NCBI GenBank assembly: GCA_023382715.1 | Contig: JAHDWP010000002.1 | Coordinates: 1-64,000, forward strand | Direction: 5' to 3' | Length of the DNA stretch: 64,000 nucleotides | DNA from: Anaerolineae bacterium | Lineage (GTDB): Bacteria; Chloroflexota; Anaerolineae; Aggregatilineales; Aggregatilineaceae | In this document: piece after piece, positions 294 through 18,200 of the stretch | Layout: every line of letters begins with the position of its first letter | Position numbering within the stretch: position 1 is the first letter of the stretch | The notes under the pieces: model-generated | Databases searched by the model: none | The model's input: the letters and a program-made list of their open reading frames with translations, nothing else | Told to the model about the DNA's origin: nothing | Made by a program: the position numbers and the translations under genes

Positions 294-2195
294 GTGACTC
301 TCCGAAACAGGCTGGGCCTGCTGTTCTTATCCTTCTTGATTCTAGTGACGATCTCCGTGGTGGCAACCGCGTGGATGGTGCGCGATCAGGATCAGGACGC
401 GCTGGTGATCAATCTGGCTGGACGCCAGCGTATGCTCGTGCAGCAGATCATCAGCCAGACGCTGCAAATCCAAGCGGGCCAAAACCCGGACGAACACAGA
501 CAAATTCTGCGTGACGCAACAACTGTGTTTGATCAAACACTCACCGCGTTGATTGCCGGTGGCGAAACGCAGTATCTGCCGGGTCAGACGGTTCCCATAC
601 CGGCAGCCGGATTGGAGACCATCCGGGCTGAACTGCGCGACCTCCAGCAGCGTTGGACCATGTTCCAGGATGATTTGCACATCATTGAAACGGCATCACC
701 CGGCAGCGCCAGCTTTGACACCGCGATTCAGTCTCTACAGGCGCTTGCGCCGCAGTTGGTTCGGCAGGCGGACGAGATTGTGCGGTTATACGAGGCAGAG
801 TCGGAGCGCAAGCTGGCGTATTTGGGGTGGATACAAGCTGGTTTTTTCTTGTGCGCAGTCGGACTGTTGGTGATCGGCGTAGTGATGATCCGGCGCGCAA
901 TCATGACCCCACTGCAAACACTTAAGAACGCAGCACAACAGATCGGGCAGGGTGACCTCGACAGTCCGGTACAGATCGCTGGCCCGCCTGAATTCACAGA
1001 TCTGGCGACCAGCGTCGATACCATGCGCGCCCAGCTAAAGACCTTAACCGGAGAACTTGAGGCACGAATCTACCAGCGCACGCGCGAATTGACCGCCCTG
1101 TACGACGTGATCCGCGAGATTTCGTCGCATTTGGATATCGCGCACGTTCTGGACTCAGTGACCGCTAAGGCTCGCGATCTGCTCGATAGTGATGTCGCGT
1201 GCCTGTGTTTGCTGGATAGTGCGGGCGAGTCGTTGATGCTCAAGGCGTATAACGGTCCTCAGGATGCGGTATGTGGCAGTTGTGTGCTGGCGAAACACTC
1301 GGTTGCGGCGCAGGTTTTGGGCCGTGAGGAAGCCATGATTTGTGACGTAGGCGGCTGCCAGACGGTGGCCCCGGACTATCGGGCCAGCCACCTTGCCGCG
1401 CCGCTGCAGGTGGGGGAACGCGTGATCGGGGCGTTATGTGTTGGCAGCACACGGGCGGCCACTTATTCTGATGAGCAGGTCCGACTGCTGACCGAACTGG
1501 CGAACTCAACAGCAATCGCGCTGGAAAATGCGCGGCTGTATGAGCAGGCCGAACGTGTGGCAGCATTGGAAGAACGCCAGCGTATTGCCGCCGATATACA
1601 TGACGGGCTGGCCCAGACGCTCAGTTATGTCAGGCTCAAAACCGGTCGCCTGGCGGATCTGATCGCGCGCGATGCAGATGAGCAAGCGGCACAGGAATTG
1701 ACCCTGATTAGCGCTGCGGTAGACCGTGCCGATCACGAAGTGCGCCAGTCGATCGCCAGCTTGCGGGCTGTTCCGGTTCTGGATCGCACATTGCAGGAGC
1801 ATCTTGCTGACGTTGTCGCCGATTTCACCCAATCCGTCCCCGAAGTTGCAATTGATGTTGTGAGCGCGGATGATCACGATGTGGTCCTGGAAAGTGACGC
1901 GATGGCCCAGGTGCTGCGTGTGGTTCAGGAAGCCTTGCAGAATGCGCGCCGCCATGCCAGCGCGTCCCGCGTTACGATCCGGTTGGAGCGCCAGGGAGCA
2001 GTCTATCGTGTTATGATCCATGATAATGGCTGCGGGTTTGATCCCAGCGCCGTGAACGGCAAAGGGCACTTTGGACTGAGCATCATGCAGGCACGTGCGG
2101 CACGCATTGGCGGCGATCTGATGATTGAGGCAGCGCCGGGACAGGGCACGCACGTGATTCTGGCATGGCCTGTACAACAGGCGATGCCTGCGTAG
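294..2195 (+). CDS. NarX-type sensor histidine kinase with GAF domain
   Basis: Membrane sensor kinase of 633 residues that would phosphorylate the response regulator encoded just downstream. Start is GTG. Membrane segments lie near residues 8-28 and 176-199 and enclose a periplasmic helical domain. At about residues 39-52 this domain has the motif INLAGRQRMLVQQI, like the P-box of NarX/NarQ and PilJ-type sensors. HAMP follows (about 200-255), then GAF (about 265-420). The HisKA_3 dimerisation domain has the phospho-acceptor His436 (DIHDGLAQ), followed by an HATPase with N-box QEALQNARRH and G-box DNGCGFD. The GAF domain contains several Cys residues (CLCLL, CGSC, CDVGGC), which could suggest a redox or metal-cluster input; that is inference. 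The stop is 17 bp before the regulator ATG, so this is an operon. Confidence 0.9.
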   Translation: MTLRNRLGLLFLSFLILVTISVVATAWMVRDQDQDALVINLAGRQRMLVQQIISQTLQIQAGQNPDEHRQILRDATTVFDQTLTALIAGGETQYLPGQTVPIPAAGLETIRAELRDLQQRWTMFQDDLHIIETASPGSASFDTAIQSLQALAPQLVRQADEIVRLYEAESERKLAYLGWIQAGFFLCAVGLLVIGVVMIRRAIMTPLQTLKNAAQQIGQGDLDSPVQIAGPPEFTDLATSVDTMRAQLKTLTGELEARIYQRTRELTALYDVIREISSHLDIAHVLDSVTAKARDLLDSDVACLCLLDSAGESLMLKAYNGPQDAVCGSCVLAKHSVAAQVLGREEAMICDVGGCQTVAPDYRASHLAAPLQVGERVIGALCVGSTRAATYSDEQVRLLTELANSTAIALENARLYEQAERVAALEERQRIAADIHDGLAQTLSYVRLKTGRLADLIARDADEQAAQELTLISAAVDRADHEVRQSIASLRAVPVLDRTLQEHLADVVADFTQSVPEVAIDVVSADDHDVVLESDAMAQVLRVVQEALQNARRHASASRVTIRLERQGAVYRVMIHDNGCGFDPSAVNGKGHFGLSIMQARAARIGGDLMIEAAPGQGTHVILAWPVQQAMPA

Positions 2196-2212
2196 TTAGT
2201 GGAGCTAGACAA

Positions 2213-2866
2213 ATGGACCCTATTCGCGTTTTATTGGTCGATGATCATGCCCTGTTTCGTGAAGGGTTGGCAAGCATCATCACGGGCCAGCCCGATATGG
2301 TTATCGTGGGGCAGGCTGACGATGGGCTGGAAGCGCTGGTCAAGGCGCAGGAATTGAAACCCGACCTGATCCTGATGGATATCACCATGCCCGGTGGCAG
2401 CGGCCTGGAAGCAACACACAAGATCAAGGCAGCCTTGCCGGACACGGTGATCGTGGTGCTGACGGTCCACAGTGACGAAGAAAAGTTGTTTGAAGCGATC
2501 AAGAACGGCGCACAGGGATACCTGCTCAAGAATATCCGCTCCGAAACCATGCTGGACTTGATTCGCGGTGCGCTGCGCGGCGAAGCGGCCATCACACCGG
2601 TGCTTGCCGGTCAGATACTCGAAGAATTCCGTCGCCTGAGTCGCAACCTCCCCGACGAGATGGGCGAGCCAGTCGAAACGTTGACGTTCCGCGAACAGGA
2701 AGTTCTGGCGCAGGTGGCGACCGGGGCGAGCGACAAAGAGATCGCCGAGCAGTTCAATATCAGCCTGCATACCGTCAAAAGCCATATGCGCAACATTCTC
2801 GCCAAGCTGCATGTCAACAGTCGCTACAAAGCCGCCTGGTACGCCCGGTACAAGGGGTTGGTGTAA
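2213..2866 (+). CDS. NarL/LuxR-family response regulator
   Basis: Two-component DNA-binding regulator of 217 residues, partner of the preceding kinase. The ATG at 2213 is preferred over an in-frame upstream ATG because GGAG lies just upstream and the protein then starts at the receiver (IRVLLVDDHALFREG). The receiver has the acidic pair D10/D11, the phospho-acceptor D56 (LILMDITMPG), a conserved T near 84 and K near 106. The C-terminal LuxR-type helix-turn-helix begins LTFREQEVLAQVATG and includes HTVKSHMRNILAKL. No target site was identified. A terminator follows the gene. Confidence 0.93.
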   Translation: MDPIRVLLVDDHALFREGLASIITGQPDMVIVGQADDGLEALVKAQELKPDLILMDITMPGGSGLEATHKIKAALPDTVIVVLTVHSDEEKLFEAIKNGAQGYLLKNIRSETMLDLIRGALRGEAAITPVLAGQILEEFRRLSRNLPDEMGEPVETLTFREQEVLAQVATGASDKEIAEQFNISLHTVKSHMRNILAKLHVNSRYKAAWYARYKGLV

Positions 2867-2915
2867 ACGGATCCATTCCTCCTCTAGACGATACGAATTA
2901 ATCCCTGCCTCATAG

Positions 2916-2950
2916 GAGCGATGAAGCCGTACACCCCATCGCTCTTTTTT
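2916..2950 (+). terminator. Intrinsic terminator of the two-component operon
   Basis: GAGCGATG (2916-2923) pairs with CATCGCTC (2937-2944) and is followed directly by six T residues. Confidence 0.85.
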
Positions 2951-2975
2951 CATGCTGCTATCCCCCTGAAGAACG

Positions 2976-3004
2976 TTACATCAGAAGAACAAAACGATTA
3001 CACT
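2976..3004 (+). promoter_or_regulatory. Sigma70-like promoter of the YdhR-like gene
   Basis: TTACAT (2976-2981) and TACACT (2999-3004) are separated by 17 bp, about 45 bp before the ATG and just after the preceding terminator. The boxes deviate from consensus. Confidence 0.45.
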
Positions 3005-3049
3005 AAAAGTAAACGGTTCGATAGCAGAAACCCAAAGGAGGGAAAGCTC

Positions 3050-3370
3050 ATGTCTCAGAAAATATTGCAGGTCAATTTTAAGTTCAGTGTGTCAAAAGCG
3101 GAGTACGAGCAGGTGTGCTTGCCAGAAGCTCCGAATCTTGCAGCTGCTCCTGGTTTGCGTTGGAAGGTGTGGATCATGAACGAGGTGGAACGTGAGGCAG
3201 GGGGGATTTACCTGTTCGATGATGAGACCTCACTGCAATCGTTCGTCGAGCCGCTCAAGGCTATGTTGGATGCTCCCATCTTCAGTGATATCCGTATGAC
3301 AACGTTTGATATTTTGGAGGCACTCACCCTGATCACACGCGGTCCTATTCAGGAAACTGCTCAGATATAA
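3050..3370 (+). CDS. YdhR-like putative monooxygenase (small dimeric alpha-beta barrel)
   Basis: A 106-residue soluble protein resembling the YdhR family. That family forms small ferredoxin-like dimers related to antibiotic-biosynthesis monooxygenases; the reaction is unknown for most members. The ATG at 3050 has a strong site (AAAGGAGGGAAAGCTC). Visible family features are a beta strand at the start (ILQVNFKFSVS), a central GLRWKVWIMNE segment, and a GGIYLFDDETSLQSFVEP segment followed by helices. It is monocistronic: a terminator lies upstream and an IS256 element begins 18 bp after the stop. Family assignment is moderate; substrate cannot be read from sequence. Confidence 0.7.
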   Translation: MSQKILQVNFKFSVSKAEYEQVCLPEAPNLAAAPGLRWKVWIMNEVEREAGGIYLFDDETSLQSFVEPLKAMLDAPIFSDIRMTTFDILEALTLITRGPIQETAQI

Positions 3371-3388
3371 CGCTGAAGGACCGGTCAA

Positions 3389-4794
3389 GTCCGAAAACTT
3401 CTGTAAAAGTGGAGACGTGGCATCGGATTAGACAGCCTTCCTCTGAAATGATGTAGGTTCGGGTGAACTGGGCGACAACTCCAGCTCCCGTCGTAAGCGG
3501 CGCAGCATGGCAAGCTCCAGGTCGGTCATGCGCACACGCTGCCAGCGCTCACTGGCCTGCCAGAGCGTGGCAAAGACCAGCTTCAAGCAACTGCGCTCAT
3601 CGAAGAAGCGCGGGATGGTTTTGGTGCGGCGGCGCTGCTCGGCGAAGGCCCGCTCAATCAGGTTGGTAGTCCGAATGCGCCGGTGATGCAAAGGCGGGCA
3701 GCGTAGGAAGGCCAGGCACGCTTCCAGGTCATCGAGCAAACAGGTGATCGCTGACGGGTAGAGCTGCTCATAGGTGTCGAAGAAGTCTTTCAGCAACCGG
3801 TCCGCCGTAGGCCGGTTGGGCGCATTCCAGATCGCCTGCAATCGCTGCTTCACCTCGGGTTGAGCCGACAGCGGGACTTTGTCGAGGATGTTGCGGGTCT
3901 TGAGCATCACGCAGCGCTGGCGCAGGCTTTTGGGCCAGACTTCCTCGACTGCCGCAATCACCGCTGGCGCACCATCCGTTGTGACCAGCGTCGGGGTGGG
4001 CAGGCCGCGTTTGGTCATGTGACGGATGAACTCACGCCAACAGGACAGGCTTTCTTTATTGCCCAACGCCATGGGCAGCAGCACCTTACTTCCATCCCGG
4101 CAAATCGCCCAGGCGCACAGCAGCGCTTCTTTCACGTTGCCCTGCCGCCGCAGACTCTCATACACCGCATCCAGAAAGACGTATTCGACCTCGAACTCCG
4201 CCAGGCTCCGCACGCAGAAACGTTGGTAATCTTCCCACAGGCTGTCGGTGATCTCGCTGATGGCGGTGCGGCCCAGCAAGGGTTCACCGGTCACTGGATC
4301 CCGGAAGGCGTCTTCCACGTCACGCGTCGACAGACCACGGGTGTACATCTGCAGCACCAGGTAATCCAGCACATCCGTGTTGCCCTTGAAGAACTCCATC
4401 AGCCGGGAACGATACGGCTGTTCGCTGTCGCGCACCTGGGGCACCGCCAGGGCGATCTCGCCCTCCGCACTGCGCATTCGACCCGGCTTGTAGCCGTTGC
4501 GATACCCGACCGCCTCTTCCTGGCGTTCGTACCGGTCGCGCCCCAGAAAGTCGGTCACTTCTTGCTCGAGCGCTTCCTGGGCCACCATCTGTGCCGCCAG
4601 CTTCAGAAAGTCGCTGGCCGGTTGCTCGCTCTGCTGGTACCCGCCCTGCAAGTACCCTTCCAACAGTTGCCGGATCCGCTCACTCGGCGGTATCTTCATG
4701 CTCATGGCGTGTGCTCCCTTTCCCCTCGCGGGATTCGTTCTCAGACAAACGAATGGTAGCTCACGCCTCCTTGTTTTTACAGAAGTATACGGAC
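3389..4794 (-). mobile_element. IS256-family insertion sequence
   Basis: About 1.4 kb element with imperfect terminal inverted repeats. At 3389-3408 the top strand starts GTCCGAAAACTTCTGTAAAA. The complement of 4775-4794 starts GTCCGTATACTTCTGTAAAA, with two mismatches in 20. It encloses one transposase gene. I could not find the expected 8-9 bp target duplication, so the element may be old or its flanks rearranged. It lies directly upstream of the defence operon. Confidence 0.85.
3428..4705 (-). CDS. IS256-family transposase
   Basis: Full-length 425-residue DDE transposase of the IS256/mutator type, catalysing cut-and-copy movement of the element. The three acidic positions can be placed at the D of VFLDAVYESLR, the D of TTDGAPAVI and the E of TNLIERAFAEQRRR, the last being the characteristic helical segment of this family. 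The N-terminal third carries the YRNGYKPGRMRSAEGEI region common to IS256 proteins. The start at 4705 has GGGAG about 10 bp upstream. No frame interruption is visible, so the protein is probably active. Confidence 0.93.
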   Translation of the reverse strand: MSMKIPPSERIRQLLEGYLQGGYQQSEQPASDFLKLAAQMVAQEALEQEVTDFLGRDRYERQEEAVGYRNGYKPGRMRSAEGEIALAVPQVRDSEQPYRSRLMEFFKGNTDVLDYLVLQMYTRGLSTRDVEDAFRDPVTGEPLLGRTAISEITDSLWEDYQRFCVRSLAEFEVEYVFLDAVYESLRRQGNVKEALLCAWAICRDGSKVLLPMALGNKESLSCWREFIRHMTKRGLPTPTLVTTDGAPAVIAAVEEVWPKSLRQRCVMLKTRNILDKVPLSAQPEVKQRLQAIWNAPNRPTADRLLKDFFDTYEQLYPSAITCLLDDLEACLAFLRCPPLHHRRIRTTNLIERAFAEQRRRTKTIPRFFDERSCLKLVFATLWQASERWQRVRMTDLELAMLRRLRRELELSPSSPEPTSFQRKAV

Positions 4795-5149
4795 ATTACC
4801 ACTGGTTACCGTAGGGGAGACCGTAGGTAGTCGTCAACAATTTCTTTATCTCGCCCATCTTTTCGCGCAGGTTTTAGGCGCATCGGTTTCTGCCGTAGAT
4901 GCTGTTTTCCACCCCTAAGTGAGGTCACGAATTCTGCCTGGAGTAGCGTGCAGAGAGACAAATTCACAGATGTTTCATGAATGGAACATACTCTGCCGTC
5001 GTAGTTTTGTTGCGCATTCTGTCGTTCTGCCTATCATAGTAAGAACGGCGTAATGTAGCGCCATTTCCGTGGTATTGGGCAGACTTAGCTGCCTTTGTGG
5101 ATGCCCGTGATTTCTGTTTTTCAGAGACTATCTTTTTCAAGGGTGGGTC
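4795..5149 (+). promoter_or_regulatory. Leader region of the defence operon with a candidate promoter
   Basis: This 355-bp stretch between the IS256 end and the methyltransferase holds no credible gene. A possible promoter is TTGCGC (5010-5015) and TATCAT (5032-5037) with a 16-bp spacer. The ribosome site AAGGGTGGG precedes the ATG at 5150. No tight palindromic operator was recognised. Confidence 0.35.
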
Positions 5150-8100
5150 ATGTCGATCAGCTCCCTCGGCTTTCAACATTTGTCTGTTCGTTCCGCCGCT
5201 GACATTCACGAACTTTTCCGTCTTCTGGGATATCCAGTGTATGAGCCAGAGCCGTTCGAAGGCCCTGATCTTGACGAATTGGAGCTCGACGACGTAGATC
5301 GCGCATCTGTTCAGCGCGCCTACGTCGTGTCCAATCTCGACAACCACGCGGTCTATCTGTACGAGGTCGATGATCTTCGCCAAACGCGACTGCGCGGACT
5401 GGCCTGGAACGCTCTCCAGCGCGGGACCGCGCTGCTTGTGGTAACCCGTGACTATCGCGAGATTGTCTTCGCTCACCCTCGGTTTGTCGGCACCCCCACC
5501 AAGAGCAATGTGCGCGTGGACAAGCTGAAGATGATCGTCAGCGATCCAACACGCCACGACCTCGACACCCTGAACGCTATTCACGCCCACCGGCGTACCG
5601 GCCAGCAGGTCTATGAAGCGCAAGCCGAAGCCTTCAACGTCACCAGGATCACCAAACGCTTCTATGACGAGTACAAGGCGCACTACGACCTCGCGCGGGA
5701 CGCTATTCGCCGCTACAACAAGGGCATTCCCGAATTCCAGAACGCCGATCAGGAAGCGAAGCTGCACGCCTTCACTCAGCGTTTGCTGGGGCGGTTGATG
5801 TTTCTCTATTTCCTTCAGCGCAAGGGATGGCTTGGCGGACAGAAGCGCTTCCTGGGCGATCAGTTTATCGACACCGTGCGACGCCATGCCGGTGAGTTCC
5901 GGGGTGATCAGGAGACGTTTTACTACTACACCGAAGTTCTCGAGCCGCTGTTTTTTGAAACGATGAACACGCGGCGGCTCGATAACACTACACGCTGGCC
6001 AGGTGTGCGGATTCCCTATCTCAACGGTGGGTTGTTCGATAAATCACGTGATCCGGAAGGCGTGATTATTCTGCCAGACTCGTTATTTGATCCAAATAGC
6101 AGCGATGGCTTGCTCGCTTTTTTCAACCGCTACAACTTCACCATTGCCGACGATACCCCGCTTGAACAAGACGTGGCCGTTGATCCGGAAATGCTCGGCA
6201 AGGTCTTTGAAAACATGCTCGAAGAGCGTGACCGGGGCCAGACCGGCAGCTTCTACACGCCGCGCACGATTGTGTCGTACATGTGCCAGGAAGCGTTGGC
6301 CGGATACCTCGAAGAGAGCGCGAATATCCCACGCGAGACTACCCGCGCCCAGTTTGATCCCGACACTGATGTAGCCCTCACGCCAGAAGAAGCGCAGCGC
6401 ATAAGCGCCGCGCTCGACACCCTGACCGTGCTCGATCCGGCGGTCGGCAGCGGCTCATTCCTGATCGGGATGCTGGGAGAGATCATCCTGCTGCGCCGAG
6501 CTTGTGCCAGTGCGCTGGGCGTTGAGGTCAATGCGGCGGTTGTAGCTGATTGGAAAGAAGCGATCATCCGCGACACGCTTTACGGCGTAGACATCAAGCC
6601 GGAAGCGATTGAGATCGCTCAGCTTCGGCTCTGGCTGGCGCTGGTCGTGGACCAGACTATCGAACAGGCGCGCCCCTTGCCTAACCTGGACTACAAGCTC
6701 ATGGCGGGCAACAGCCTGATCGAGACTATCGACGGCGAGCCGGTTCTCACTAAGAGCGCGACTGCCCTCTTGCGTGGCGAAGAGTCTGCCATGCAGCTCT
6801 CCAACCCGGCAGGCACGCAGATAGGAATGAGGCTCTTTGAAAGTGAACGCCAAACTCAACAAGCGCGGGTGGAACTCGATATGCTGCGACAGCAGTTCTT
6901 CCGCGCCAGCCCGGAAGAACGTCGTCAGTTGCGCGACAAAGTCACTACTCAGGAACGGCGGATTGTTTTTTCCAGCCTGAGAGAAAAAGCTGAAGCGCTG
7001 CAGGCGCAGATCGATCACCTGGGCAAGAAAGCAGGACTCGCTGGCGGACGGCTGGGACGTGCTGACCAGCGCAAGCTCGAAGACGCCAGCGCCAGGTTAA
7101 CGCGCATAACCGATTTACAGGAAACAATGCGCAACCCGGAAGCCGCGCTGCCGTTCTTCCTTTATCGCCTGCACTTCAGCGAGGTCTTCACGCGCAAAGG
7201 CGGATTCGACGTGGTGGTCGCCAACCCGCCCTATGTACGCATGGAAGCCATCACCGACCAGAAGCCAGAACTGCAAGCATCTTATCCTGAGGTGTACACC
7301 GGTACGGCAGATTTATATGTGTACTTCTTCGCACGGGGCATTCAACTGCTCAGGTCGCATGGCCAGATCACCTACATCGCGCCGAACAAATGGCTGCGAG
7401 CAGGCTACGGCGAGAAGCTGCGTGAGCATTTCGTCAACTCCGTGCACATCGAGCAAATCATTGATTTTGGCCACGCGTCGATTTTCAAGGGTACGGATAC
7501 CTTCCCGTGTATCGTGGTATTCCAGAAAGCCAATGGCAAACCGGCTCACGCCTCTCATGTCCTCGTGACCCGGTTCCCCAGAGACGAATTCGAGCAGTGG
7601 GACCTGCGCGATTTCGTCGAGGAACAGAGCCACCCAGTTGCGGCGAATCGTTTCTCGGCGGCTCCCTGGAGCCTGGAACCCGCCGACATCGAGCGCTTGA
7701 TGGCCAAGATTCAGGCAGCAGGCATCCCGCTGCGAGAATTTATTGGGGCGGAACCCTATTATGGAATCAAGACCGGGCTGAACGAAGCCTTTCTGATCGA
7801 CACAGCAACCAGGGATCGCCTGGTGGCCGAAGACCCCGCATGTGAAGCGATTATCCGGCCCTATCTGCGCGGTCAGGATATCAAGCGCTGGACGCCGGAA
7901 TGGGCTGGACTGTGGATGATCCTTCTCAAGTCGAGTGAGAATCATTCTTGGCCGTGGAGCAAAGCAGGTACAGGCGCCGAGCAGGTTTTCGCGGAGACTT
8001 ACCCGGCACTCTATGCACACATGAAACCATTTGAGGAAAAACTCCGGAAGCGTCAAGATCAAGGCCGGTTTTGGTGGGAACTCAGATCGTGTGCGTATTA

Positions 8101-8572
8101 CGAGATCTTTGAGCAACCCAAGATTATCCACACAGATATTACTTGGCGCGCGCAATTTGCTTTCACGGACGACCCCGTTTATCTGGTTAACACCGCCTAT
8201 GTTTGGCCAACCAACGATTTATACTTGTTGGCGGTTGTCAACTCCCCGTTACTTTGGGCGTTCATGTGGCGCAACGCCATGCACGGAAAAGATGAAGCGC
8301 TGCGCATGATTTACTCATTTACTGAAACCCTACCTATTGCTCAACCCACTGGTGAAATCCGGGCAAAAATCGAGCCACTTGTCAAACAGTTGATCACCCT
8401 CTCTAAAGAGTCGCAAACTCACGCCATACAGGCGGAGATGCGTCGCCTGGAACAACATCTCTCGAATTTGGTTAATCAGGTGTATGGGCTGACACCGGAG
8501 GATATCGAGTTGATGTGGCGCACGGCTCCGCCCAGAATGCCGATAGTGCCGCCGAAGATGGAACAAGAATGA
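5150..8572 (+). CDS. Type IIG/Eco57I-like N6-adenine DNA methyltransferase, putative restriction-modification or defence subunit
   Basis: Large protein of 1140 residues that should methylate adenine in DNA. SAM motif I is LDPAVGSGSFLIGM at about 427-440. The catalytic motif IV is NPPY at 692-695. Between them lies a long charged, probably coiled-coil insertion (about 565-640). The C-terminal third (about 800-1140) resembles TaqI/Eco57I-type target-recognition regions, including a VYLVNTAYVWPTNDLYLLAV strand. The N-terminal 150 residues have the fold signature seen in type IIG enzymes (ALLVVTRDYREIVFAHPRF), but I cannot point to an unambiguous PD-(D/E)XK nuclease. It is first of five co-directional genes and is 46 bp from the OLD nuclease. 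It may be the self-marking component of a DISARM- or BREX-like system; it is not a standard type I HsdM because no hsdS or hsdR is present. Confidence 0.85.
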   Translation: MSISSLGFQHLSVRSAADIHELFRLLGYPVYEPEPFEGPDLDELELDDVDRASVQRAYVVSNLDNHAVYLYEVDDLRQTRLRGLAWNALQRGTALLVVTRDYREIVFAHPRFVGTPTKSNVRVDKLKMIVSDPTRHDLDTLNAIHAHRRTGQQVYEAQAEAFNVTRITKRFYDEYKAHYDLARDAIRRYNKGIPEFQNADQEAKLHAFTQRLLGRLMFLYFLQRKGWLGGQKRFLGDQFIDTVRRHAGEFRGDQETFYYYTEVLEPLFFETMNTRRLDNTTRWPGVRIPYLNGGLFDKSRDPEGVIILPDSLFDPNSSDGLLAFFNRYNFTIADDTPLEQDVAVDPEMLGKVFENMLEERDRGQTGSFYTPRTIVSYMCQEALAGYLEESANIPRETTRAQFDPDTDVALTPEEAQRISAALDTLTVLDPAVGSGSFLIGMLGEIILLRRACASALGVEVNAAVVADWKEAIIRDTLYGVDIKPEAIEIAQLRLWLALVVDQTIEQARPLPNLDYKLMAGNSLIETIDGEPVLTKSATALLRGEESAMQLSNPAGTQIGMRLFESERQTQQARVELDMLRQQFFRASPEERRQLRDKVTTQERRIVFSSLREKAEALQAQIDHLGKKAGLAGGRLGRADQRKLEDASARLTRITDLQETMRNPEAALPFFLYRLHFSEVFTRKGGFDVVVANPPYVRMEAITDQKPELQASYPEVYTGTADLYVYFFARGIQLLRSHGQITYIAPNKWLRAGYGEKLREHFVNSVHIEQIIDFGHASIFKGTDTFPCIVVFQKANGKPAHASHVLVTRFPRDEFEQWDLRDFVEEQSHPVAANRFSAAPWSLEPADIERLMAKIQAAGIPLREFIGAEPYYGIKTGLNEAFLIDTATRDRLVAEDPACEAIIRPYLRGQDIKRWTPEWAGLWMILLKSSENHSWPWSKAGTGAEQVFAETYPALYAHMKPFEEKLRKRQDQGRFWWELRSCAYYEIFEQPKIIHTDITWRAQFAFTDDPVYLVNTAYVWPTNDLYLLAVVNSPLLWAFMWRNAMHGKDEALRMIYSFTETLPIAQPTGEIRAKIEPLVKQLITLSKESQTHAIQAEMRRLEQHLSNLVNQVYGLTPEDIELMWRTAPPRMPIVPPKMEQE

Positions 8573-8618
8573 GCCTGGGATATGGCTTTTCGGACGGGCA
8601 TGGGGACACTGGGAGTTA

Positions 8619-10289
8619 ATGGTGAAAATCAAAAGGATAAAAATTCAGAATTTCAGGTCGATAAAATCCCTGGAATTTTTCCCTGCTAGTGTTTGCGCAT
8701 TAGTTGGTGAGAATGGCGTAGGAAAAACAAACATCCTTGCCGCTCTCGATTTTCTACTTGGCGAAAAATGGCCATCAAATCAGCGACTTGAAGTTTCTGA
8801 TTACTTCCAACATGACGAGCGACGAGAAATCTTTGTCGGAATCGAATTCGAACAAAACGCTTATGACATCCAGTTTATTTGTTTCAAGCAGGGCTTTGAG
8901 AAAGGCCAGAATCGAATTGGATATTTCTCAAATCCCTGTACAGACCTTAAACAGGCCGCTTTTCTCAAGACTGAACATCGCGAAAAATGCGCAATGACGT
9001 ATCTGGAAGCTAGCCGCGATCTGGATCGTCATCTAGGAACTTCCCCTTGGACACTATTTGGACGCATTACCAGCCAATTCAACGCCGATTTCCCAGAAGC
9101 CTCTATAGAACCTCTCGAAGCTCATTTTGAAGGTGCCCTAGAACTACTCCGAACTCCAAGATTCCAGCAATTCGAAGCGGAGATCGAAACCGCTTTTCGA
9201 GACCAACTTAAGCGTACCACTCACAACTTGCGATTAGAGTTCAAAGCCTTTGATCCCCAGAGCTACTACCGTTCAATCAATCTTGTTCTTCGGAGAGGGA
9301 AAGACGAGCGACTCAGGCTTCCAGAGGCTGGACAGGGGATGCGCAATTTGGCATTGTTGGCTCTGTTCCGAGCATATGCAACTGTATTCAAGGGGGATGC
9401 GATAATTGCCATCGAAGAGCCGGAAATCTATTTACATCCCCATGCTCAGCGCAGTTTAGCGAGTCTATTTAATGATCTTGCTGAGCGGGAAAACCAGGTG
9501 TTTTTCTCAACGCACGCTAGCAGCTTTGTAGACCTGGAACACTTTGATCAAGTTTGTCTGGTTGAGAGATGTGTGGACGATGACGGAGAGCAATGTACTA
9601 CGGTGCGGCAGGTTTCCGCCGAACAGTTTCTTGAGGAACGGCAAAAGCTTCATCCGTCTATTTCGATGACAACGGATAGCGTCAAAAAAAGACTTCACAA
9701 TATCAGTCGATTGGAGCACAGTGAGGTCTTTTTTGCCAGGAAAGCTGTTCTTGTCGAAGGAGAAACGGAGCAATATGCACTTCCCATTTTTGCCGATTGC
9801 CTCAGCTATAATCTGGACTCATTTGGCGTATCCATAATCAACGCTGGTGGCAAAAACAACTTGGATCAATTCTTCCAACTGTACAACGCCTTTGGCATTC
9901 CTGTTTATGTGATCTTCGATAATGACCAGGGTAAGCCAGATAAGGAATTGGAGCAAAATAGAGTCTTACTGCGAATGCTCCATCAACCCGAAACCTTAAA
10001 CCCTGAGCCAGAGATTTCGGCAACATACGCGGTTCTGAATATTGACTTCGAAACCGAAATGCGGAATGCCATTGGGTCTGAGAACTATGACAGTTTGTGT
10101 AAAGATGCAGCATACGAACTGGGCTCAAATCCGGGAAAAGGTCTGCGCGCTCGTTACATGGCGCAACGCTTGGCGGATGAGGGAATTGTGCCCAATTTCA
10201 TTTCGGATATCGTGCGAGCGATTAGAGTCCTGGGTGACATTGATGTTGAGGTGGCAAACGGCGATTTTCCAGAGGAATTTCCGTTCTGA
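8619..10289 (+). CDS. OLD-family ATPase/TOPRIM nuclease
   Basis: A 556-residue protein with an ABC-type ATPase N-terminus and a TOPRIM C-terminus, the build of overcoming-lysogenization-defect (OLD) nucleases. The start reads KIKRIKIQNFRSIKSLEF, typical of RecF/SMC-like ATPases. Walker A is GENGVGKT at 30-37, and the Walker B region is IIAIEEPEIYLHPHAQR near 263-280. TOPRIM shows the glutamate in VLVEGETEQ (about 378-386) and an acidic DND in VIFDNDQGK (about 433). The gene is visibly richer in A/T than the methyltransferase before it and the helicase after it, suggesting a separate origin. It lies between two genes that look like a natural pair. It may cut invading DNA under nucleotide control, as GajA does; that is inference. 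Confidence 0.85.
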   Translation: MVKIKRIKIQNFRSIKSLEFFPASVCALVGENGVGKTNILAALDFLLGEKWPSNQRLEVSDYFQHDERREIFVGIEFEQNAYDIQFICFKQGFEKGQNRIGYFSNPCTDLKQAAFLKTEHREKCAMTYLEASRDLDRHLGTSPWTLFGRITSQFNADFPEASIEPLEAHFEGALELLRTPRFQQFEAEIETAFRDQLKRTTHNLRLEFKAFDPQSYYRSINLVLRRGKDERLRLPEAGQGMRNLALLALFRAYATVFKGDAIIAIEEPEIYLHPHAQRSLASLFNDLAERENQVFFSTHASSFVDLEHFDQVCLVERCVDDDGEQCTTVRQVSAEQFLEERQKLHPSISMTTDSVKKRLHNISRLEHSEVFFARKAVLVEGETEQYALPIFADCLSYNLDSFGVSIINAGGKNNLDQFFQLYNAFGIPVYVIFDNDQGKPDKELEQNRVLLRMLHQPETLNPEPEISATYAVLNIDFETEMRNAIGSENYDSLCKDAAYELGSNPGKGLRARYMAQRLADEGIVPNFISDIVRAIRVLGDIDVEVANGDFPEEFPF

Positions 10290-10360
10290 GCGATAGTGTT
10301 GTTGCAAATGCAGTACACGAACAAAATCGACTCGCTGCGCGTTTGGAAAAAGGGCTTGAA

Positions 10361-13300
10361 ATGTACCACCCTCCAGATTACATCGACAATACCGCTGAGG
10401 AACGCATACTCGGCGCTGTGCTGCACCGCCTGCTCACCGAGTGGGATGAACGCGAACTGGATATCGCCAGTGGGTTCTTCGAGCCGAAGGTCTGGGAGAT
10501 GCTGGGCGATGCTCTGCGGAGGCTTTCGTGCTTCCGCCTGTTGCTGGGCCGTCCTCCGGAGCTAGAAAGCCCTGAAGCCGATGATGGGGTAGTAGATTTG
10601 CAGCGGTTCTATCGCCAGCGCCTGCGCGAAGACCTCGAAGCGCTGCCGCTCAACCGGGACTATGCCTTCCTGATCGATGACCTGACCGCTTTTCTGGCCC
10701 AGGAGTTGGTTCAAGTTCGATACTACAACGGCGCATTTCTGCATGCCAAAGCCTATCTGATGCCTCACGCGGCGATTGTCGGCAGCAGCAACTTCACGCC
10801 CTCGGGCATGACCCGTCAAGCCGAACTGAATCTCGTTCAGCAAAACCAGGCGGTAATCCGCGATCTGCGCCAGAACTGGTTCGAGCAGATGTGGGCTTAT
10901 TCGACCGATCACAAGCAGGACCTGATCGACGCGCTGAACGAAAGCAAGTTCGGCGATGCGCTCTGGACCCCGCACGATGTATTCATCAAGGTGCTGTACG
11001 AATACTTCCGTGACCGCATTATCCCCGAAGAAGTTGAGGCGCGCATAGGGGTTGAACTGGCCAGTTTCCAGCAAGAGGGCTTGCGAGAGGCCATTCGCCT
11101 GATCGACCGGCACGGCGGGGTGATTGTCAGCGACGCGGTGGGGCTGGGCAAGACGTATATCGGCATGAGCCTGCTGGAACACTACGTGTTGGGTAAGCGT
11201 CGCAAGGGGCACATCCCGCGCGGACTGGTCATCTGCCCGGCGCAGTTGCGCGATCTGGTCTGGGAACCGAAGCTGGACGAGTACGGGATCAAGGCAGAGG
11301 TCATCTCCCAGGAACTGGTAAGCCGCGATTCGTTCGACTGGAAACACTACAACCGGTACGATGTGGTGCTGATCGACGAAAGCCACAACTTCCGCAATCC
11401 GGGCACCAACCGCTACCAGAACCTGATGAAGATGCTGGCCACCGGCAACCCGGATACCAAGGTCATCCTCATGACGGCGACACCGGTCAACAATTCGGTG
11501 TGGGACCTGTATCACCAGATTTCGTTTATCACACGCGGCCAGGATGTGTTCTTCCGCGAATATGGTATCCGCAACCTAAAGGGATATTTCCGGGAAGTCC
11601 AGGACGGTGGCGCGGACATCTTCACGCTGCTGGAACAAACGATGGTGCGTCGCAGCCGCCAGGATGTGAAGCAGCGCCAGCAAGCTGGGGAAGAAATTCG
11701 CTTGCCGGGGAAGGGAATCATTCACTTTCCCGAGCGACTGCTCTACAGCGTCAACTACGATCTGGAAGCCACCTATGACGGATTCTACGAAAAGATCGTG
11801 GCGCGTATCGAAAGCCTCTCGCTGATCAGCTTCAATATCGAGCAGTATCGCAAAGGCGATATCGACCAAGAAGTCGAGCGTGTGCGGCAGTATTCAAATG
11901 CACTAATTGGCATCCTGAAAACACTTTATCTCAAGCGCCTGGAAAGCTCGCTGGCAGCCTTTGAAGTCAGCATCCGACGTCAGCAGCAGTTCCAGGAACG
12001 GTTCTACGATATGCTGGTCAACCATGAGAGACTGCTAGACTCGGCTACCAACCGCCGTTTGCTAGCTCTGGAAGCGCTGGAAGACGACACTGTAACCGAC
12101 GATATTGAGGTGATTATTGAGTCACTACCTGAGGCGGACATTCGCGACTATGATCTACGCGCTATCCGCCGCGAACTCAGCCTGGATATGCAGACGCTCG
12201 ATGCCATTCTTGACATGGTCGAGTTAGTCCAGCATCTGGATGACGAGCAGAAACGCGATGCCAAACTTGCTGAGGTCAAGCGGCTGCTGTCCGATGATCT
12301 GCGTGGGCGAAAAATCCTGCTCTTTTCGTACTACCGGGACACAGCCCAATATGTCTATGAAGCGCTGATTGGCGATCCAACATGGCAAGAAAGCTGGTCC
12401 CGCCCGCCTGTGATCGAGGTCATCCACGGCGAAACCGATCCCCATAGGCGCGAGAATCTTGTCAAGCGCTTTGCCCCAAAAGCCAACACAACTGAAGACA
12501 ATCCACCACCGATTTCTGAAGCCGATCCAGAGATCGACATCCTGATCTCCACCGACGTGCTGAGTGAAGGGCAGAATCTGCAAGATGCGGGCGTGATCAT
12601 TAACTACGATCTTCACTGGACGCCGATTCGAATGATTCAACGAGCAGGGCGCATTGATCGCCTGGGCACCGAGTTCGACACACTGCATGTCTTCAACTGC
12701 TTTCCTCAGACCGGATTGGAGCAATTACTGGGGCTGGTGGAGCGATTACAAGACCGCATCCGTGACATCGACCGTACAGTGGGTCTCGATGCCAGTATCC
12801 TGGGCGAAGTTGTCAGCTCGCGTTCACTTGACCAACTCAGACGACTGCACCAGGAAGATCAAAGCGTGATCGACGAGTTGGAGCGGGAAATTGAGCTTGT
12901 CTCAACCGATGAAATGAAGCTCCCGCTTATCCTGTACTTGCAGCAAGCTGGACTAGAAAAGGTCAAGAGCATTCCACTGGGAATCGGTTCTGGAATTGCC
13001 AAGTCACTTCACCCATCTGGTGAGTTTTTCGCGTTTCAGGCAGCAGATCGTCATTTCTGGCGACTCTATACGGCTGACGAAGTTATCAGCGACAAGCGCC
13101 GTCTATACCGCTATCTATTGGTTGGTTCCGACGAACCCCGTTCAATGTCTGCCGATTTTGAGGTCTACGACAGGCTCGATCAGGCCACCAACGATGTGCT
13201 TGAAGAGATTAACTCAGCAGTTCGTGCGCGTCGCATTAAGCCTAAGATGGGTGCGATCAATGTGGAACTGGGTGCGGCGTTACGCCAGCCCACTCTGCTC

Positions 13301-13591
13301 ACGACTGCCGAAATTGCAGCGCCAGACGACCTTGTCGCTCCAGAGAATCTGCGTCAGAAGGTTCAACAGGTTATCCAGAACATCTCGCTGGACGCCTTCA
13401 GGCGTGATAAAACGCTGAGGGCGGTTTTGGCCAACTATCGAGACGATCAGAATCAACGTGCTCTGGTAGAAGCCCTGGATGAGTTCTTTGTCGAGAACGA
13501 ATTATATCGTGACATCATCATGCCCAAGACGACCTTGGAGCAGATTCGTGCCGAAGATTTGCGATTGGTGGCATATGAGGTTTTCAGATAA
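10361..13591 (+). CDS. PLD-nuclease / SNF2-type helicase fusion protein
   Basis: A 1076-residue fusion. The N-terminal region (about 1-200) is a phospholipase-D-like nuclease with one HKD-type motif (H128-A-K130, then IVGSSNFTPSG); such proteins usually dimerise to form the active site. A superfamily-2 SNF2-like helicase follows: Walker A DAVGLGKT near 258-266, Walker B IDESHNFRN near 338-346, motif III MTATPVNNS. The C-terminal RecA fold has STDVLSEGQNLQ and QRAGRIDRLG. I prefer the ATG at 10361 (AAAGGG six bases upstream) over a TTG at 10343. Helicase-PLD proteins of this build are found beside DNA methyltransferases in defence loci and probably translocate on and cut unmodified DNA. Codon use matches the methyltransferase more than the intervening OLD gene. 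Confidence 0.88.
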   Translation: MYHPPDYIDNTAEERILGAVLHRLLTEWDERELDIASGFFEPKVWEMLGDALRRLSCFRLLLGRPPELESPEADDGVVDLQRFYRQRLREDLEALPLNRDYAFLIDDLTAFLAQELVQVRYYNGAFLHAKAYLMPHAAIVGSSNFTPSGMTRQAELNLVQQNQAVIRDLRQNWFEQMWAYSTDHKQDLIDALNESKFGDALWTPHDVFIKVLYEYFRDRIIPEEVEARIGVELASFQQEGLREAIRLIDRHGGVIVSDAVGLGKTYIGMSLLEHYVLGKRRKGHIPRGLVICPAQLRDLVWEPKLDEYGIKAEVISQELVSRDSFDWKHYNRYDVVLIDESHNFRNPGTNRYQNLMKMLATGNPDTKVILMTATPVNNSVWDLYHQISFITRGQDVFFREYGIRNLKGYFREVQDGGADIFTLLEQTMVRRSRQDVKQRQQAGEEIRLPGKGIIHFPERLLYSVNYDLEATYDGFYEKIVARIESLSLISFNIEQYRKGDIDQEVERVRQYSNALIGILKTLYLKRLESSLAAFEVSIRRQQQFQERFYDMLVNHERLLDSATNRRLLALEALEDDTVTDDIEVIIESLPEADIRDYDLRAIRRELSLDMQTLDAILDMVELVQHLDDEQKRDAKLAEVKRLLSDDLRGRKILLFSYYRDTAQYVYEALIGDPTWQESWSRPPVIEVIHGETDPHRRENLVKRFAPKANTTEDNPPPISEADPEIDILISTDVLSEGQNLQDAGVIINYDLHWTPIRMIQRAGRIDRLGTEFDTLHVFNCFPQTGLEQLLGLVERLQDRIRDIDRTVGLDASILGEVVSSRSLDQLRRLHQEDQSVIDELEREIELVSTDEMKLPLILYLQQAGLEKVKSIPLGIGSGIAKSLHPSGEFFAFQAADRHFWRLYTADEVISDKRRLYRYLLVGSDEPRSMSADFEVYDRLDQATNDVLEEINSAVRARRIKPKMGAINVELGAALRQPTLLTTAEIAAPDDLVAPENLRQKVQQVIQNISLDAFRRDKTLRAVLANYRDDQNQRALVEALDEFFVENELYRDIIMPKTTLEQIRAEDLRLVAYEVFR

Positions 13592-15460
13592 AGGTTCTGG
13601 GCTGGGTGATCGTGCCAGGAAACAATCGGAGGTGGCGAGTTGATATTGCAACGAGTGACAGTCAGAAACTTTCGTAATCTCGACAATGTAACCGTAGACC
13701 TCGGTCTGTTCAGCGTCATAATAGGCCCAAACAATTCAGGGAAGACCAATCTGCTAGAGGCTATCAGAAAAGTTTTGGGGCCAGGAAGTGCTCGAAACGT
13801 ATCTATTTTGGATTCTGACTTTGGGGATTTAGCGCGTCCCATTGAAATCGAAATATGTTTTGAGGTAAATACCGAACATGACTTAGCTGCATTTTACGGA
13901 ATACGCGGCGGCCAAATTGAACCGACTCAAAGGACAGTAACAATTCACTTTGAGGCTGAATGGAGGCAAGAAAACCGTGAAGTCTATGCCGAGTGCCTTA
14001 TCATACGAGATGGATTGCCAGAGGAGCATCGACAGCGAGCAGTTTTCGACTGGACGTTCAAGCGTTACATTCAATTTGAGTTAGTCCCTGCCATCCGAGA
14101 AGTGCCATCAAGCGCTGACTTTTCGGCGCGTTCATCCGACTTGCGGCAGATTTTCTCATATTTTGCTTCGGATTTTGTGCGCCCTGTTGAAGCCGTTCTA
14201 AAGGCGACATCGGCGACTCTTGCTAAAGTGGAATCAGACACAGAGACCCTCAGAGAGTTAGGATTGGCTGATGTTGCCAATACTATCCAGACGAAGTTTA
14301 GTGAGTTGGATCGCCAATTTCGGGAGGGCGCGCAAGACAATAGACCTCCTTTCTTGCGACCTCAAATTGGCGATTATAAGCAGAACTGGAAAGAAATCGA
14401 AACGACCTTAGAAAGCCTCGCGGGGGATGATGATTCCACTTCTGATGGTCGCGAACACCAACACATTGAAGACTTGCGACAAATTGTAAAGAAGGTTCTC
14501 TTGGTAATCGAACGGGCGGATTTTCAAGTTACCCTTTTCGAGCTTCGGGAGAGCATTTCGCAAAGTTCGCAGTTCAGTGGTATGCATTCGCAGATAGCAG
14601 ATATTGCTTCGGCGTTGATACCGGGTTACAACGCCTCGCTAAGCCTCTTCCCTATAAAGGATAACGAACTCATCGCAAGTGCTGCGGTTGAAATGGAGGG
14701 CTTGCCGTTTCAACATCAAGGCAGTGGACATCAAAGCTCGTTTGTCATTGGCCTAAAACTCTTACGTGCTCTTGCCCAACTTCAAGATGATGCAGAGGGA
14801 GAAGTCAATTACCTCCTGCTTGGATTAGAGGAAATAGAAACGCATTTGCATCCTCAGATGCAGCGTTTTGTAGTCAACGCGCTTAGGAGCCTTCAACAAC
14901 GTTTTGCAGACGATGGGAAAACTATCCAGATTATTCTTACCACGCACTCACCGGATATTTTGTCTCGATGCGAAATTGAGAATCTGATAATCCTCGGCCC
15001 CAAGCATCGAACTGATAGGGTAGGAAGATGTTCCCTGGAAGACCTTAAAGCTATTGCCTTATCAGTGGCAGGTGGCGAGATCGGCGGCTTGTCGAAGAAG
15101 ATAGCCAGACTCAGATTGGAAGCTGAACAACTTCTTTTGACAAATGGTGACGCTCTCTTTGCTCAATGCGTTGTTGTCGCAGAGGGTGCTTCAGAACAGG
15201 GGGCAATTCCGGTTTTTGCTCGAAATATGACAGATGGTTTTGACCTTGATGAAGTTGGTGTTACGGTTATTGACGGATGCGGTGCCGAAATGATGTATCC
15301 GCTTTACCTTTTACAGCAATTGAACATCCCAAGTACATTTGCCTACGATTCGACCGATCCAGTTCACAAGCACATTGCTGAGAAATTCGGGGGATTTCCC
15401 ACTGATCTTCATAAGTTCGAGGACGAAATTCTAGCAAACATTCCCATTCACTTGGTGCTA

Positions 15461-16328
15461 GGGCGTGTTTGCAAACTTATAGCCAGAGCAAGATGGCGGC
15501 GAGAGTGACGACAGCCCGGTAACAGTCCGCCCGTTTTTCATAGCGTGTGGCGACGCGCCGGAACTGTTTGAGCCGGTTGATAAAGCGCTCCACCCGATTA
15601 CGGAGGCGATAGAGAGTGCGGTCAAAAGGGCCAGAGCGATGCTCATTCCGCTTGTGCGGGATGGTGATGCGGATCCCACGCCGTCGCAGAGTGTTGCGGA
15701 GCTTGCGGCTGCTGTATCCCTTATCGCCCACCAGGCGTTTGGGACGCCGCTTGGGGCGACCCCTGCCAACCCGCTTGACCGCGCCCTGGTCCAACAGCTC
15801 CTCGGCGACGGTGGCTTCATGCTGTTGGCCAGGCGTAAGGACAAAGGTCATCAACTGCCCATTGCCCTCCACACGCACATGCAGCTTGGTGCTGAACCCG
15901 CCCTGGCTGCGACCTAAGGCGTCCGTTTTCGGGTCACTTTTTTTGCCCCGGCGGCGTGCTGATGAGCCCGCACGACGGTGCCATCCACAAAATGTACTTC
16001 CCAGTCCAACTTTCCGGCTCGGTCCGCTTGTTCCTGCACCGCCGCCAGGATGCGATCCCATAATCCGGCCCGTGTCCACCGGTAGAAGCGGCTCGCCACC
16101 GTCGACCAGGGACCGTACCGTGCGGGTAAATCACGCCAGGGGGCGCCGGTCCGGATGACCCAGAGCATCCCGTTGATGATCCGCCGATGGTCGTCCGCCG
16201 GGCGTCCCGTCTTGGGCTTCTGGGGCGGCAGCAGCGGTTGCAGTCGCTCCCATTGTTCGTCGGTTAATTCATGTCGTTTGCTCATGGCCCGCAGTATACC
16301 GGCGTGGTTCGACTTTGCAAACACGCCT
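15461..16328 (-). mobile_element. IS5-family (IS427-like, two-frame) insertion sequence inside gajA
   Basis: An 868-bp element with 15-bp inverted ends (GGGCGTGTTTGCAAA at 15461-15475; complement of 16314-16328 reads AGGCGTGTTTGCAAA). It is flanked by TA on both sides (15459-15460 and 16329-16330). Host sequence rejoins as GTGCTA/GAAGCTC, restoring the gajA reading frame, so the boundaries are well supported. Clean ends and an intact frameshift site indicate recent insertion. Confidence 0.92.
15477..16285 (-). CDS. IS5-family transposase made by programmed -1 frameshift
   Basis: Two overlapping frames encode one transposase. The first starts at ATG 16285 (MSKRHELTDEQWERLQPLLP) and ends at 15914. 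It holds the HTH and first acidic residue (HFVDGTVVRAHQHAAG). The second frame covers SKLHVRVEGNGQ-type sequence with the second Asp in LVGDKGYSS and the Glu in NRVERFINRLKQFR. A run of seven A on the coding strand (15938-15944) lies in the overlap, the usual slippery site for -1 shifting in this group. The shift direction was checked from the frame coordinates. Both halves look intact. Confidence 0.9.
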
Positions 16329-16622
16329 TAGAAGCTCTCTATGAAGTGAACGAGCATCGTGTCACAGAGATGGTTAGGAGTTTGCCTAAAACAGGTGTTC
16401 TTCAAGGAATAGAAACTCCTGAATCCTTGATAGCTTGTTTGGAGAATGTAAAAAACGGGCAAATTCATGACTTGACTCGGCAAATTAGGACAATGTTAGA
16501 TAAAGAAAAAGGGTACATGACCGGACGCAGAATTGCACAAAAAGCTACGAAGCCAGAATATGTGCCTGGTGTCTACAAGCGTATGCTCTTGGATGCCCGA
16601 CGAAAAGCCAAAGGTGAGCTGG

Positions 16623-18200
16623 ATGCGCCAGACTTCAGTTCGTGACTCCTCCCAATTACAAGCCATCTACGCACCGATTAATGCCCATCATGTGGTTATT
16701 GCCCCTGCTGGATACGGAAAAACCTATGTGATGGCGAAACGTATTGCCTACCTAATCACAGCAGGTTATGTCCGTCCCCCGTATCGGGTTCTAGGATTGA
16801 CTTTTACAAATTCCGCTGCGGCCACGATGCAACGGAGAGTTGCGCGTGAAGTGGATCAACAATTCCACGAGTGTATAGACATTATGAATTTCCACTCTTT
16901 TTGTTATCAAGCACTTGTGGCCTATGGCACGGAAATAGGAATCCAGCCTGATTTTATTGTCGTGGGAGAACAAAAAACTGACAATGGGCCTGGATTGACT
17001 TACGATGATTTGCTCTTGGGAGGAAAAGCGTTATTGGAAATTTCGCGTATTTTAGCCCTATACCGGGCAGTGTATCGCTATATCGTGGTTGATGAATTTC
17101 AGGACACCAATCCGTGTCAGTTTGGAATTTTGAGACTATTGGTAAAGGGGCTTGCCCCTCAAAATGATGATCGCCCAGTAATGATATTTGCAGATAAAGA
17201 ACAAGCAATATACGAATTTCGTGATGCACGCCCAGAGAATGTAGATCATGCCCTAAGCGAATTTGGCTGCCGAGAGACAATCAGGCTAACGCAAAACCAT
17301 AGGGTAAAAAATAATGACATTGACGCTTTAGGCCGTCTTCTTCGGACAGATGACTTTGGCATTGAAATATTACCTCAAAGAAAATACCCTCTTTCTCTAT
17401 CCCGCAATGTAGCTGAAGAAGCTCCCAGAGTAGCCGAATTGATTCAGGGTTTGCAGCAGCGTGGTATTTCTTTGCACGAAATCTGCGTTATCGCGGCCAC
17501 AGGGTATCGATTAAACAGTATTATCGAACAACTGGATACTTCCCCTAAAGTCCCCTATGTGTTTATACCATCATTTCAGACGAAAGAGATTGAAGACAAG
17601 CACCCGACTCTCGTAGAGAAGTTGACTGAAATCGCACAAAAAGGCTCTAATACCTGTCGAAGCCTGTTGGATGTTATTCCCAAGACCGACGGTGAAGGCA
17701 AAACCGATCCTGTGCTTAACCTAATGCGTGTAATGGCTCAGCAATATGATTCACGGTATCGAAATCTGCCCCTAAAAAGACGAGCAGCGATTTTCAGAAA
17801 TCATCTTTACCTGGAAATCGACTGGGGAACTTTAATTCGAGAACGTTGCACCGACCGGGTTTTTATCTCAACAATTCACGGTGTTAAGGGTTTAGAGTTT
17901 GAACATGTAGTATTGGTTGGAATGGAAGACAGAGGAATACCTCATTGGAAAATATGCCGGGAATGCCGAAATGGCAACTCAGTGGAATCTCTTCTCAAGG
18001 AGCCTGCGAGACAGTTGCACGTCGCTGTAACGCGCAGTATCTCCGAAGTGTATTTCTTTAGCGTGCAGCAGCAAACAAGTCAATATGGTGGGGTATTTGA
18101 TAGGCAGACAACATGCCTTTTGTCTCCTATTCAATCATATCTTGGACTCGGAGTGGATGTGTCGGTTCCGGTGTTATGTCAAGCTTGTTCCGTCTCATAA
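16623..18200 (+). CDS. gajB: Gabija-type GajB, UvrD/Rep-like helicase
   Basis: A 525-residue superfamily-1 helicase, the second subunit of Gabija-like defence. Walker A is APAGYGKT at 27-34, motif Ia region LGLTFTNSAAATMQRRV, Walker B VVDEFQDTNPCQ near 154-165, motif V region STIHGVKGLEFEHVVLVG near 415-432, and motif VI LHVAVTRS. The ATG at 16623 is preferred because GGTGAG precedes it and it overlaps the end of gajA by 23 bp, so translation is coupled. Upstream in-frame ATGs would lie within gajA. The length fits GajB (about 500 residues). The gene is intact although its partner is broken, and it is A/T-rich compared with flanking metabolic genes. Confidence 0.87.
   Translation: MRQTSVRDSSQLQAIYAPINAHHVVIAPAGYGKTYVMAKRIAYLITAGYVRPPYRVLGLTFTNSAAATMQRRVAREVDQQFHECIDIMNFHSFCYQALVAYGTEIGIQPDFIVVGEQKTDNGPGLTYDDLLLGGKALLEISRILALYRAVYRYIVVDEFQDTNPCQFGILRLLVKGLAPQNDDRPVMIFADKEQAIYEFRDARPENVDHALSEFGCRETIRLTQNHRVKNNDIDALGRLLRTDDFGIEILPQRKYPLSLSRNVAEEAPRVAELIQGLQQRGISLHEICVIAATGYRLNSIIEQLDTSPKVPYVFIPSFQTKEIEDKHPTLVEKLTEIAQKGSNTCRSLLDVIPKTDGEGKTDPVLNLMRVMAQQYDSRYRNLPLKRRAAIFRNHLYLEIDWGTLIRERCTDRVFISTIHGVKGLEFEHVVLVGMEDRGIPHWKICRECRNGNSVESLLKEPARQLHVAVTRSISEVYFFSVQQQTSQYGGVFDRQTTCLLSPIQSYLGLGVDVSVPVLCQACSVS

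Follow-up and report, generated by a model that had tools for sequence, protein, structure and literature searches.

Gene content of the locus

The window, a stretch of 64,000 nucleotides from contig JAHDWP010000002.1 of an Anaerolineae bacterium, contains three adjacent co-directional genes separated by 46 and 71 bp, which encode a DNA methyltransferase, an OLD nuclease and a PLD/SNF2 helicase (Table 1). A sequence-only reading of this DNA had described the three genes and their spacing and had named their domains. The open reading frames are as it described, Pfam profiles confirm the domain calls and place PLDc_2 and SNF2 in a single open reading frame, and the defence character that it proposed is supported. 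Missing from that reading were a second OLD gene and a UvrD-type helicase gene, a Gabija-like pair located downstream of the trio (13640-18200). The PLD-SNF2 gene most likely starts at the ATG at 10361 and not at the mechanically called TTG at 10343, since 10358-10361 is where homology to relatives sets in.

Table 1. Features of the locus in window coordinates.
Feature	Position	Strand	Basis
Putative chassis gene 1: N6-adenine DNA methyltransferase with TaqI_C-type target recognition domain, 1140 aa	5150..8572	+	Pfam, AlphaFold model
Exchangeable cargo slot: stretch without homology in the otherwise 89-92% identical G005	8555..10357	+	blastn breakpoints 8554 and 10358
Putative cargo gene: class-1-type OLD ABC-ATPase/TOPRIM nuclease, 556 aa, no UvrD partner of its own	8619..10289	+	Pfam, PDB relative, motifs
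Putative chassis gene 2: PLD (HKD) nuclease fused to SNF2 translocase/helicase, 1076 aa	10361..13591	+	Pfam, residue conservation, model
GajA-like OLD nuclease cut off by IS insertion; neighbour outside the chassis	13640..15508	+	Intact 711-aa homologue in G005
IS5-type insertion within the GajA-like gene	15462..16328	.	Empty site in G005, terminal inverted repeats CGTGTTTGCAAA/TTTGCAAACACG
GajB-like UvrD helicase, neighbour; start uncertain; same broken Gabija-like pair	16533..18200	+	Pfam, PADLOC GajB 1.3e-67

The methyltransferase matches the Eco57I methylase (6e-41) and TaqI_C (1.5e-7) families of Pfam and carries the motifs DPAVGSG at residue 429 and NPPY at residue 692. The best PDB folds for its AlphaFold model (pLDDT 84) are CamA (Z 30.7, residues 360-1114) and BrxX (Z 27.1, residues about 166-1140). 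This fold is common to CamA and the BREX BrxX/PglX methyltransferases; in contrast to these, the window protein has an extra N-terminal domain of ~160 residues. The domain shows no alignment to solved nuclease domains among the matches listed in the fold search, which does not imply a new fold, and it reads E72-V-D in place of the E-x-K expected of a nuclease. In only 2 of 25 homologues is the lysine position of this PD-(D/E)XK motif occupied by K. The label 'IIG-like' given by the sequence-only reading is correct as to family, as an Eco57I-type methyltransferase is fused to a TaqI-like recognition domain (Pfam, PADLOC), but the 25 homologues share no conserved nuclease motif in the methyltransferase chain. 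Because the E-x-K lysine is not conserved, the PLD domain is the most likely seat of the nuclease activity associated with the outer genes.

In the PLD-SNF2 protein, Pfam places PLDc_2 at residues 119-184 (1.3e-9) ahead of SNF2 at 324-444 (3e-13), and also recognizes Helicase_C (1e-16). Of 97 homologues, about 90 keep the PLD residues H128, K130, G141, S142, N144 and E155; most of the others have gaps there because their sequences are truncated. The family does not conserve the Asp that belongs to the classical HKD motif (P135 in the window protein). Almost no variation is seen in SNF2 motifs I, II and VI across the 97 homologues, and the AlphaFold model (mean pLDDT 82) finds its fold matches in SNF2 enzymes and RapA. 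The same domain combination occurs in the PADLOC family C3a139 'HKD+Snf2' (E 4e-70) and in the NCBIfam PLD anti-phage protein NF042964 (E 2.5e-35), though the score for the latter, 122, lies far under its cut-off of 1100.

The OLD protein encoded between them combines AAA_15 (1.6e-35) with an OLD-like TOPRIM domain (2.6e-22), and carries a Walker A motif, GENGVGKT, at residue 30 and the TOPRIM motifs VEGE at 379 and DND at 434. Its best PDB relative is the class 1 nuclease Thermus scotoductus OLD (6p74; E 5e-41 over residues 4-445). Like that enzyme, it is a standalone OLD ATPase with TOPRIM catalytic residues and without a helicase partner, but it sits within a restriction-like operon. With a methyltransferase gene and a PLD-SNF2 gene as its neighbours, it does not constitute a Gabija system.

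The closest relative found (G252, 51% identity) is solo, with no methyltransferase or helicase alongside. Other relatives lie behind an N6-methylase on a Mesorhizobium plasmid (42% identity; L181 4506-9396) and behind a type III restriction-modification (RM) pair on a Bacillus badius plasmid (27%; L182 2949-9623), with a spacing of 26-29 bp, and a further one (G268, 28%) has an SNF2 helicase on one side and a probable DNA methylase on the other. The close placement of the two plasmid genes behind methylase or type III RM genes suggests a recurring link between this OLD family and RM. A phage-borne origin of the window gene was considered and rejected, as a scan of viral contigs yielded no relative and phage records gave only partial matches of 22-30%.

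The second OLD gene and its UvrD neighbour do fit Gabija, but the pair is broken by the IS. An intact GajA is present within the same flanking block in G005, a genome from a related genus, where the IS is absent (blastn gap 15461-16329; G005 continuous at 11479-11481). The island is flanked by a Mutator-type transposase gene at 3428-4705 (minus strand; Pfam) on one side and by an IS1-like transposase region at ~19980-20960 (plus strand) on the other. Homology to G005 begins at 4803, directly after the Mutator-type gene. Adjoining an IS-like gene, 18856-19875 (minus strand) encodes a protein with a match to the PADLOC candidate PDC-M14A (1.1e-15).

Replacement of the central gene in close relatives

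In G005, the methyltransferase and helicase are 92% and 95% identical to those of the window at the protein level, and the OLD gene is absent between them. Its place is taken by two genes unrelated to OLD, of 327 and 335 aa. The two DNAs are 89-92% identical over 4803-18143, broken only by the IS and the slot; blastn homology runs out at 8554, leaving 18 bp to the methyltransferase stop (8572), and picks up again at 10358, which is 3 bp ahead of the helicase ATG. In a second genome (G011), with outer proteins 76% and 85% identical, the slot holds a DUF3644 protein and no OLD.

Slot content turns over far more rapidly than the outer genes diverge. Among the 21 locus pairs with helicase identity of at least 80%, 13 have non-homologous slots, for instance L088/L105 (97%), window/L032 (95%), L087/L100 (94%) and L128/L129 (91%). 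The breakpoints in window/G005, L088/L105, L087/L100 and L128/L129 fall no more than about 22 bp from the methyltransferase stop and no more than 3 bp from the helicase start. In L088/L105 and L128/L129, a part of the methyltransferase towards the C-terminal half, probably the recognition domain, has diverged as well, which is not the case in window/G005. The repeats at the slot boundaries of four loci are short and at chance level, and a mobile element with its own ends was rejected as an account of the slot.

The two-gene cargo of 335 and 327 aa that replaces OLD in the nearest relative lies at L032 13651-15610 (minus strand), equivalent to L094 8008-9967. Neither Pfam nor PADLOC gave a match for it, and it is a candidate for an unrecognized defence pair. 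Four genomes of the window's own genus do not contain a close helicase homologue, so the block is patchily distributed, and it may have spread by horizontal transfer.

A rival reading is plain juxtaposition in a defence island: unrelated defence genes accumulate next to one another, and nothing sets the slot apart. In its favour, a Gabija-like pair and IS elements share the island with this locus, and repeats marking a dedicated insertion site were not found at the boundaries of the four loci. Against this, the outer genes keep their order, line and polarity while only the interior is swapped, repeatedly and at the same two boundaries, and we regard simple juxtaposition as very unlikely.

Distribution of the outer pair and diversity of the cargo

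A survey seeded on the helicase drew on one genome per species and the best 80 matches, so that its frequencies are biased; plasmid loci and loci of relatives were added. Counted over the 61 non-redundant loci that offer 7 kb or more of upstream DNA, a co-directional methyltransferase gene lies upstream of the PLD-SNF2 gene in 50, downstream in seven, and is not shown in four. In 13 of the 50 the two genes are directly adjacent (e.g. L116, L037), and in the other 37 a variable slot intervenes. The surveyed loci come from Chloroflexota, Cyanobacteria, Planctomycetota, Deinococcota and archaea. Pairwise divergence of the methyltransferase and of the helicase is correlated (Mantel r 0.88, reached by 0 of 2000 permutations), in part through shared ancestry.

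In distant loci, several methyltransferases reach a much greater length (1.4-2.4 kaa) and show only partial homology, so what is treated here as one chassis may be several. In three cyanobacterial loci (L092, L104, L108), a partly methyltransferase-like protein of about 2400 aa is encoded directly upstream of the PLD-SNF2 gene; it is possibly cargo fused to, or in place of, the methyltransferase.

By our own count, recognizable defence-type genes are present in about half of the occupied slots (23/44), where PDC families are counted as candidate systems. OLD-type cargo occurs in the window and in L109, L117, L118 (with HEC-01B, 5e-80) and L123. Other slots encode GmrSD/DUF262 proteins (L090, L097, L140), a CBASS cyclase (1e-139) with SLATT (L086), Argonaute (1e-230) with a DpnII-MboI nuclease (L129), an AAA_13 RloC/PrrC-like protein matching PDC-S06 (L142), AbiEi (3e-75; L127, with a 75% identical protein in L123) and RmrA-like HTH/M78 peptidase proteins (L115, L152, L156, L158, L162, L163). 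PDC-S19, PDC-S39, PDC-M04A, PDC-M24B and HNH cargo completes the inventory (G011, L100, L147, L167, L151).

Because the outer pair recurs widely and OLD-type proteins are found in the slot of at least four other distant loci, both associations are more than chance. For the sequence-only reading, a trio that never recurs would have counted against its proposal; the gene order does recur in L109 and L117, but with OLD proteins only 24-29% identical to that of the window over part of their length. Given this divergence, the simplest reading is that the slot OLDs were acquired independently.

The same reading had taken the three genes as one system, a proposal that does not survive the comparison with G005 and G011, in which unrelated genes replace OLD, or with the loci whose outer genes are directly adjacent. 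In its strict form, the methyltransferase would mark DNA while the helicase-PLD protein and OLD jointly attack unmarked DNA as an obligate three-component system. Tight co-directional spacing speaks for this, together with the recurring methyltransferase-OLD-helicase order and the OLD-type ABC proteins of L118 and L123. Yet OLD is absent in the nearest relatives of both outer genes, and two-gene versions exist. The absence of OLD from near-identical loci contradicts an obligate trio as a general rule, and for this locus it appears highly improbable.

Relation to known systems

Parts of the locus resemble several known systems. Class 1 DISARM (DrmMI, DrmD, DrmA, DrmB, DrmC) likewise comprises an adenine methyltransferase, an SNF2 helicase and a PLD protein, and the PADLOC profiles for DrmMI (4e-46) and DrmD (4e-30) match in the window. 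In contrast to DISARM, PLD is here fused to SNF2, and, in agreement with the sequence-only reading, neither DrmA nor DrmB (DUF1998) appears in Pfam and PADLOC scans of the large open reading frames at 294-18200; the only strong DrmA-profile match of the genome is on contig 4. Nor did these scans find BREX core genes (PglZ, BrxC, others) in the same interval. DUF499-centred BR Type 2/Hma systems share with the window a DNA methyltransferase and an SNF2 helicase that bears an HKD nuclease N-terminally, and some cargo families of the chassis slots (HEC-01, GmrSD) are common to Hma-embedded candidates (HEC) (PMC12839542). They differ in their DUF499 ATPase, which Pfam did not detect among the open reading frames of the locus; the single DUF499 match of the genome lies on contig 4 at 67.6-68.7 kb. 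Membership of the locus in DISARM, BREX or Hma/BR is thus ruled out by missing core genes.

Elsewhere in the genome (L180; contig 4, 62001-82000), genes for a DUF499 ATPase (1111 aa), a 1157-aa protein and an SNF2-type helicase (1163 aa) stand in a row, probably a DUF499-centred BR/Hma-type system.

A parallel in organization may be drawn with type I RM operons that embed defence genes, where, as in the window, a second defence gene lies between the genes for methyltransferase and translocase-nuclease subunits. The window differs in its one-chain methyltransferase with a target recognition domain and its PLD-SNF2 protein, without HsdS or HsdR. Examples are TgvAB in the type I RM operon of Vibrio cholerae VPI-2 (PMC11411939), DarTG2 in that of EPEC (PMC12255303) and PrrC with type Ic RM, and embedding of defence genes is established for RM, Hma and BREX operons (PMC11411939, PMC12255303, PMC12839542). 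For a named restriction-like PLD/SNF2 system, the literature searched offered nothing usable. The view that no named system has exactly this composition holds for the searchable literature, in which coverage of embedded-defence work is partial: no account was found there that presents this methyltransferase/PLD-SNF2 pair as a chassis around a hypervariable slot. Embedding in type I RM, Hma and BREX is accordingly known, while this putative chassis and its slot appear to be undescribed.

A proposed two-gene chassis with exchangeable cargo

The reading that we favour, and consider reasonably probable from comparative sequence analysis, is that of a two-gene, probably ATP-dependent RM-like chassis whose internal slot carries a second-line defence gene that can be exchanged. 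The methyltransferase would mark its own target site in host DNA; the second chassis protein would engage unmarked DNA through its SNF2 motor and cut it with its PLD domain. The OLD protein, encoded between conserved defence-system genes and exchangeable, would act as an autonomous ATP-gated nuclease that provides a second mode of protection. It is probably co-transcribed with the chassis, judging from gene spacing, and could be replaced whole via recombination through the conserved flanking genes.

An alternative to autonomy is a guard relationship, in which the chassis holds the slot protein inactive, or the slot protein monitors the chassis, and a phage block of the methyltransferase or helicase sets the slot protein free. 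PrrC with its type Ic RM system and PARIS with the anti-restriction protein Ocr are comparable cases. PrrC is a precedent for guarding: a linked type I RM system keeps it silent, and an anti-restriction factor of the phage switches it on (PMC2610378). OLD-ABC modules have also been proposed as backup effectors of BREX/BR (PMC12839542). Consistent with guarding, the cargo includes the RloC-PrrC-like protein of L142, OLD-type ABC proteins occupy the slots of five loci, and OLD relatives adjoin several different methylase systems. On the other hand, the slots hold highly diverse genes, among them systems that bring their own sensors (CBASS, Argonaute, GmrSD), the nearest relative of the window OLD stands solo, and TgvAB, an experimentally tested precedent for autonomy, protects without the restriction activity of its host operon (PMC11411939). 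Guarding consequently seems rather unlikely to us. Autonomy is favoured because the cargo is diverse and partly self-sufficient and OLD relatives occur solo; for the window OLD, this view draws on the complete systems in other slots and on the solo relatives.

We give somewhat less credence still to the idea of a universal effector bay, in which the chassis would sense attack or its own inhibition and license whichever effector occupies the slot. If true, a single RM-type sensor would drive interchangeable effectors (OLD, CBASS, Argonaute, AbiE, RloC-like and others).

Under the favoured reading of chassis and cargo, this locus type would add a further embedding host to those already known, with unusually sharp replacement boundaries. 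It also marks where new antiviral genes may be sought, namely between the methyltransferase and PLD-SNF2 genes, and the slots without recognizable defence genes, including the 327 and 335 aa pair of G005, are candidates for novel antiviral systems.
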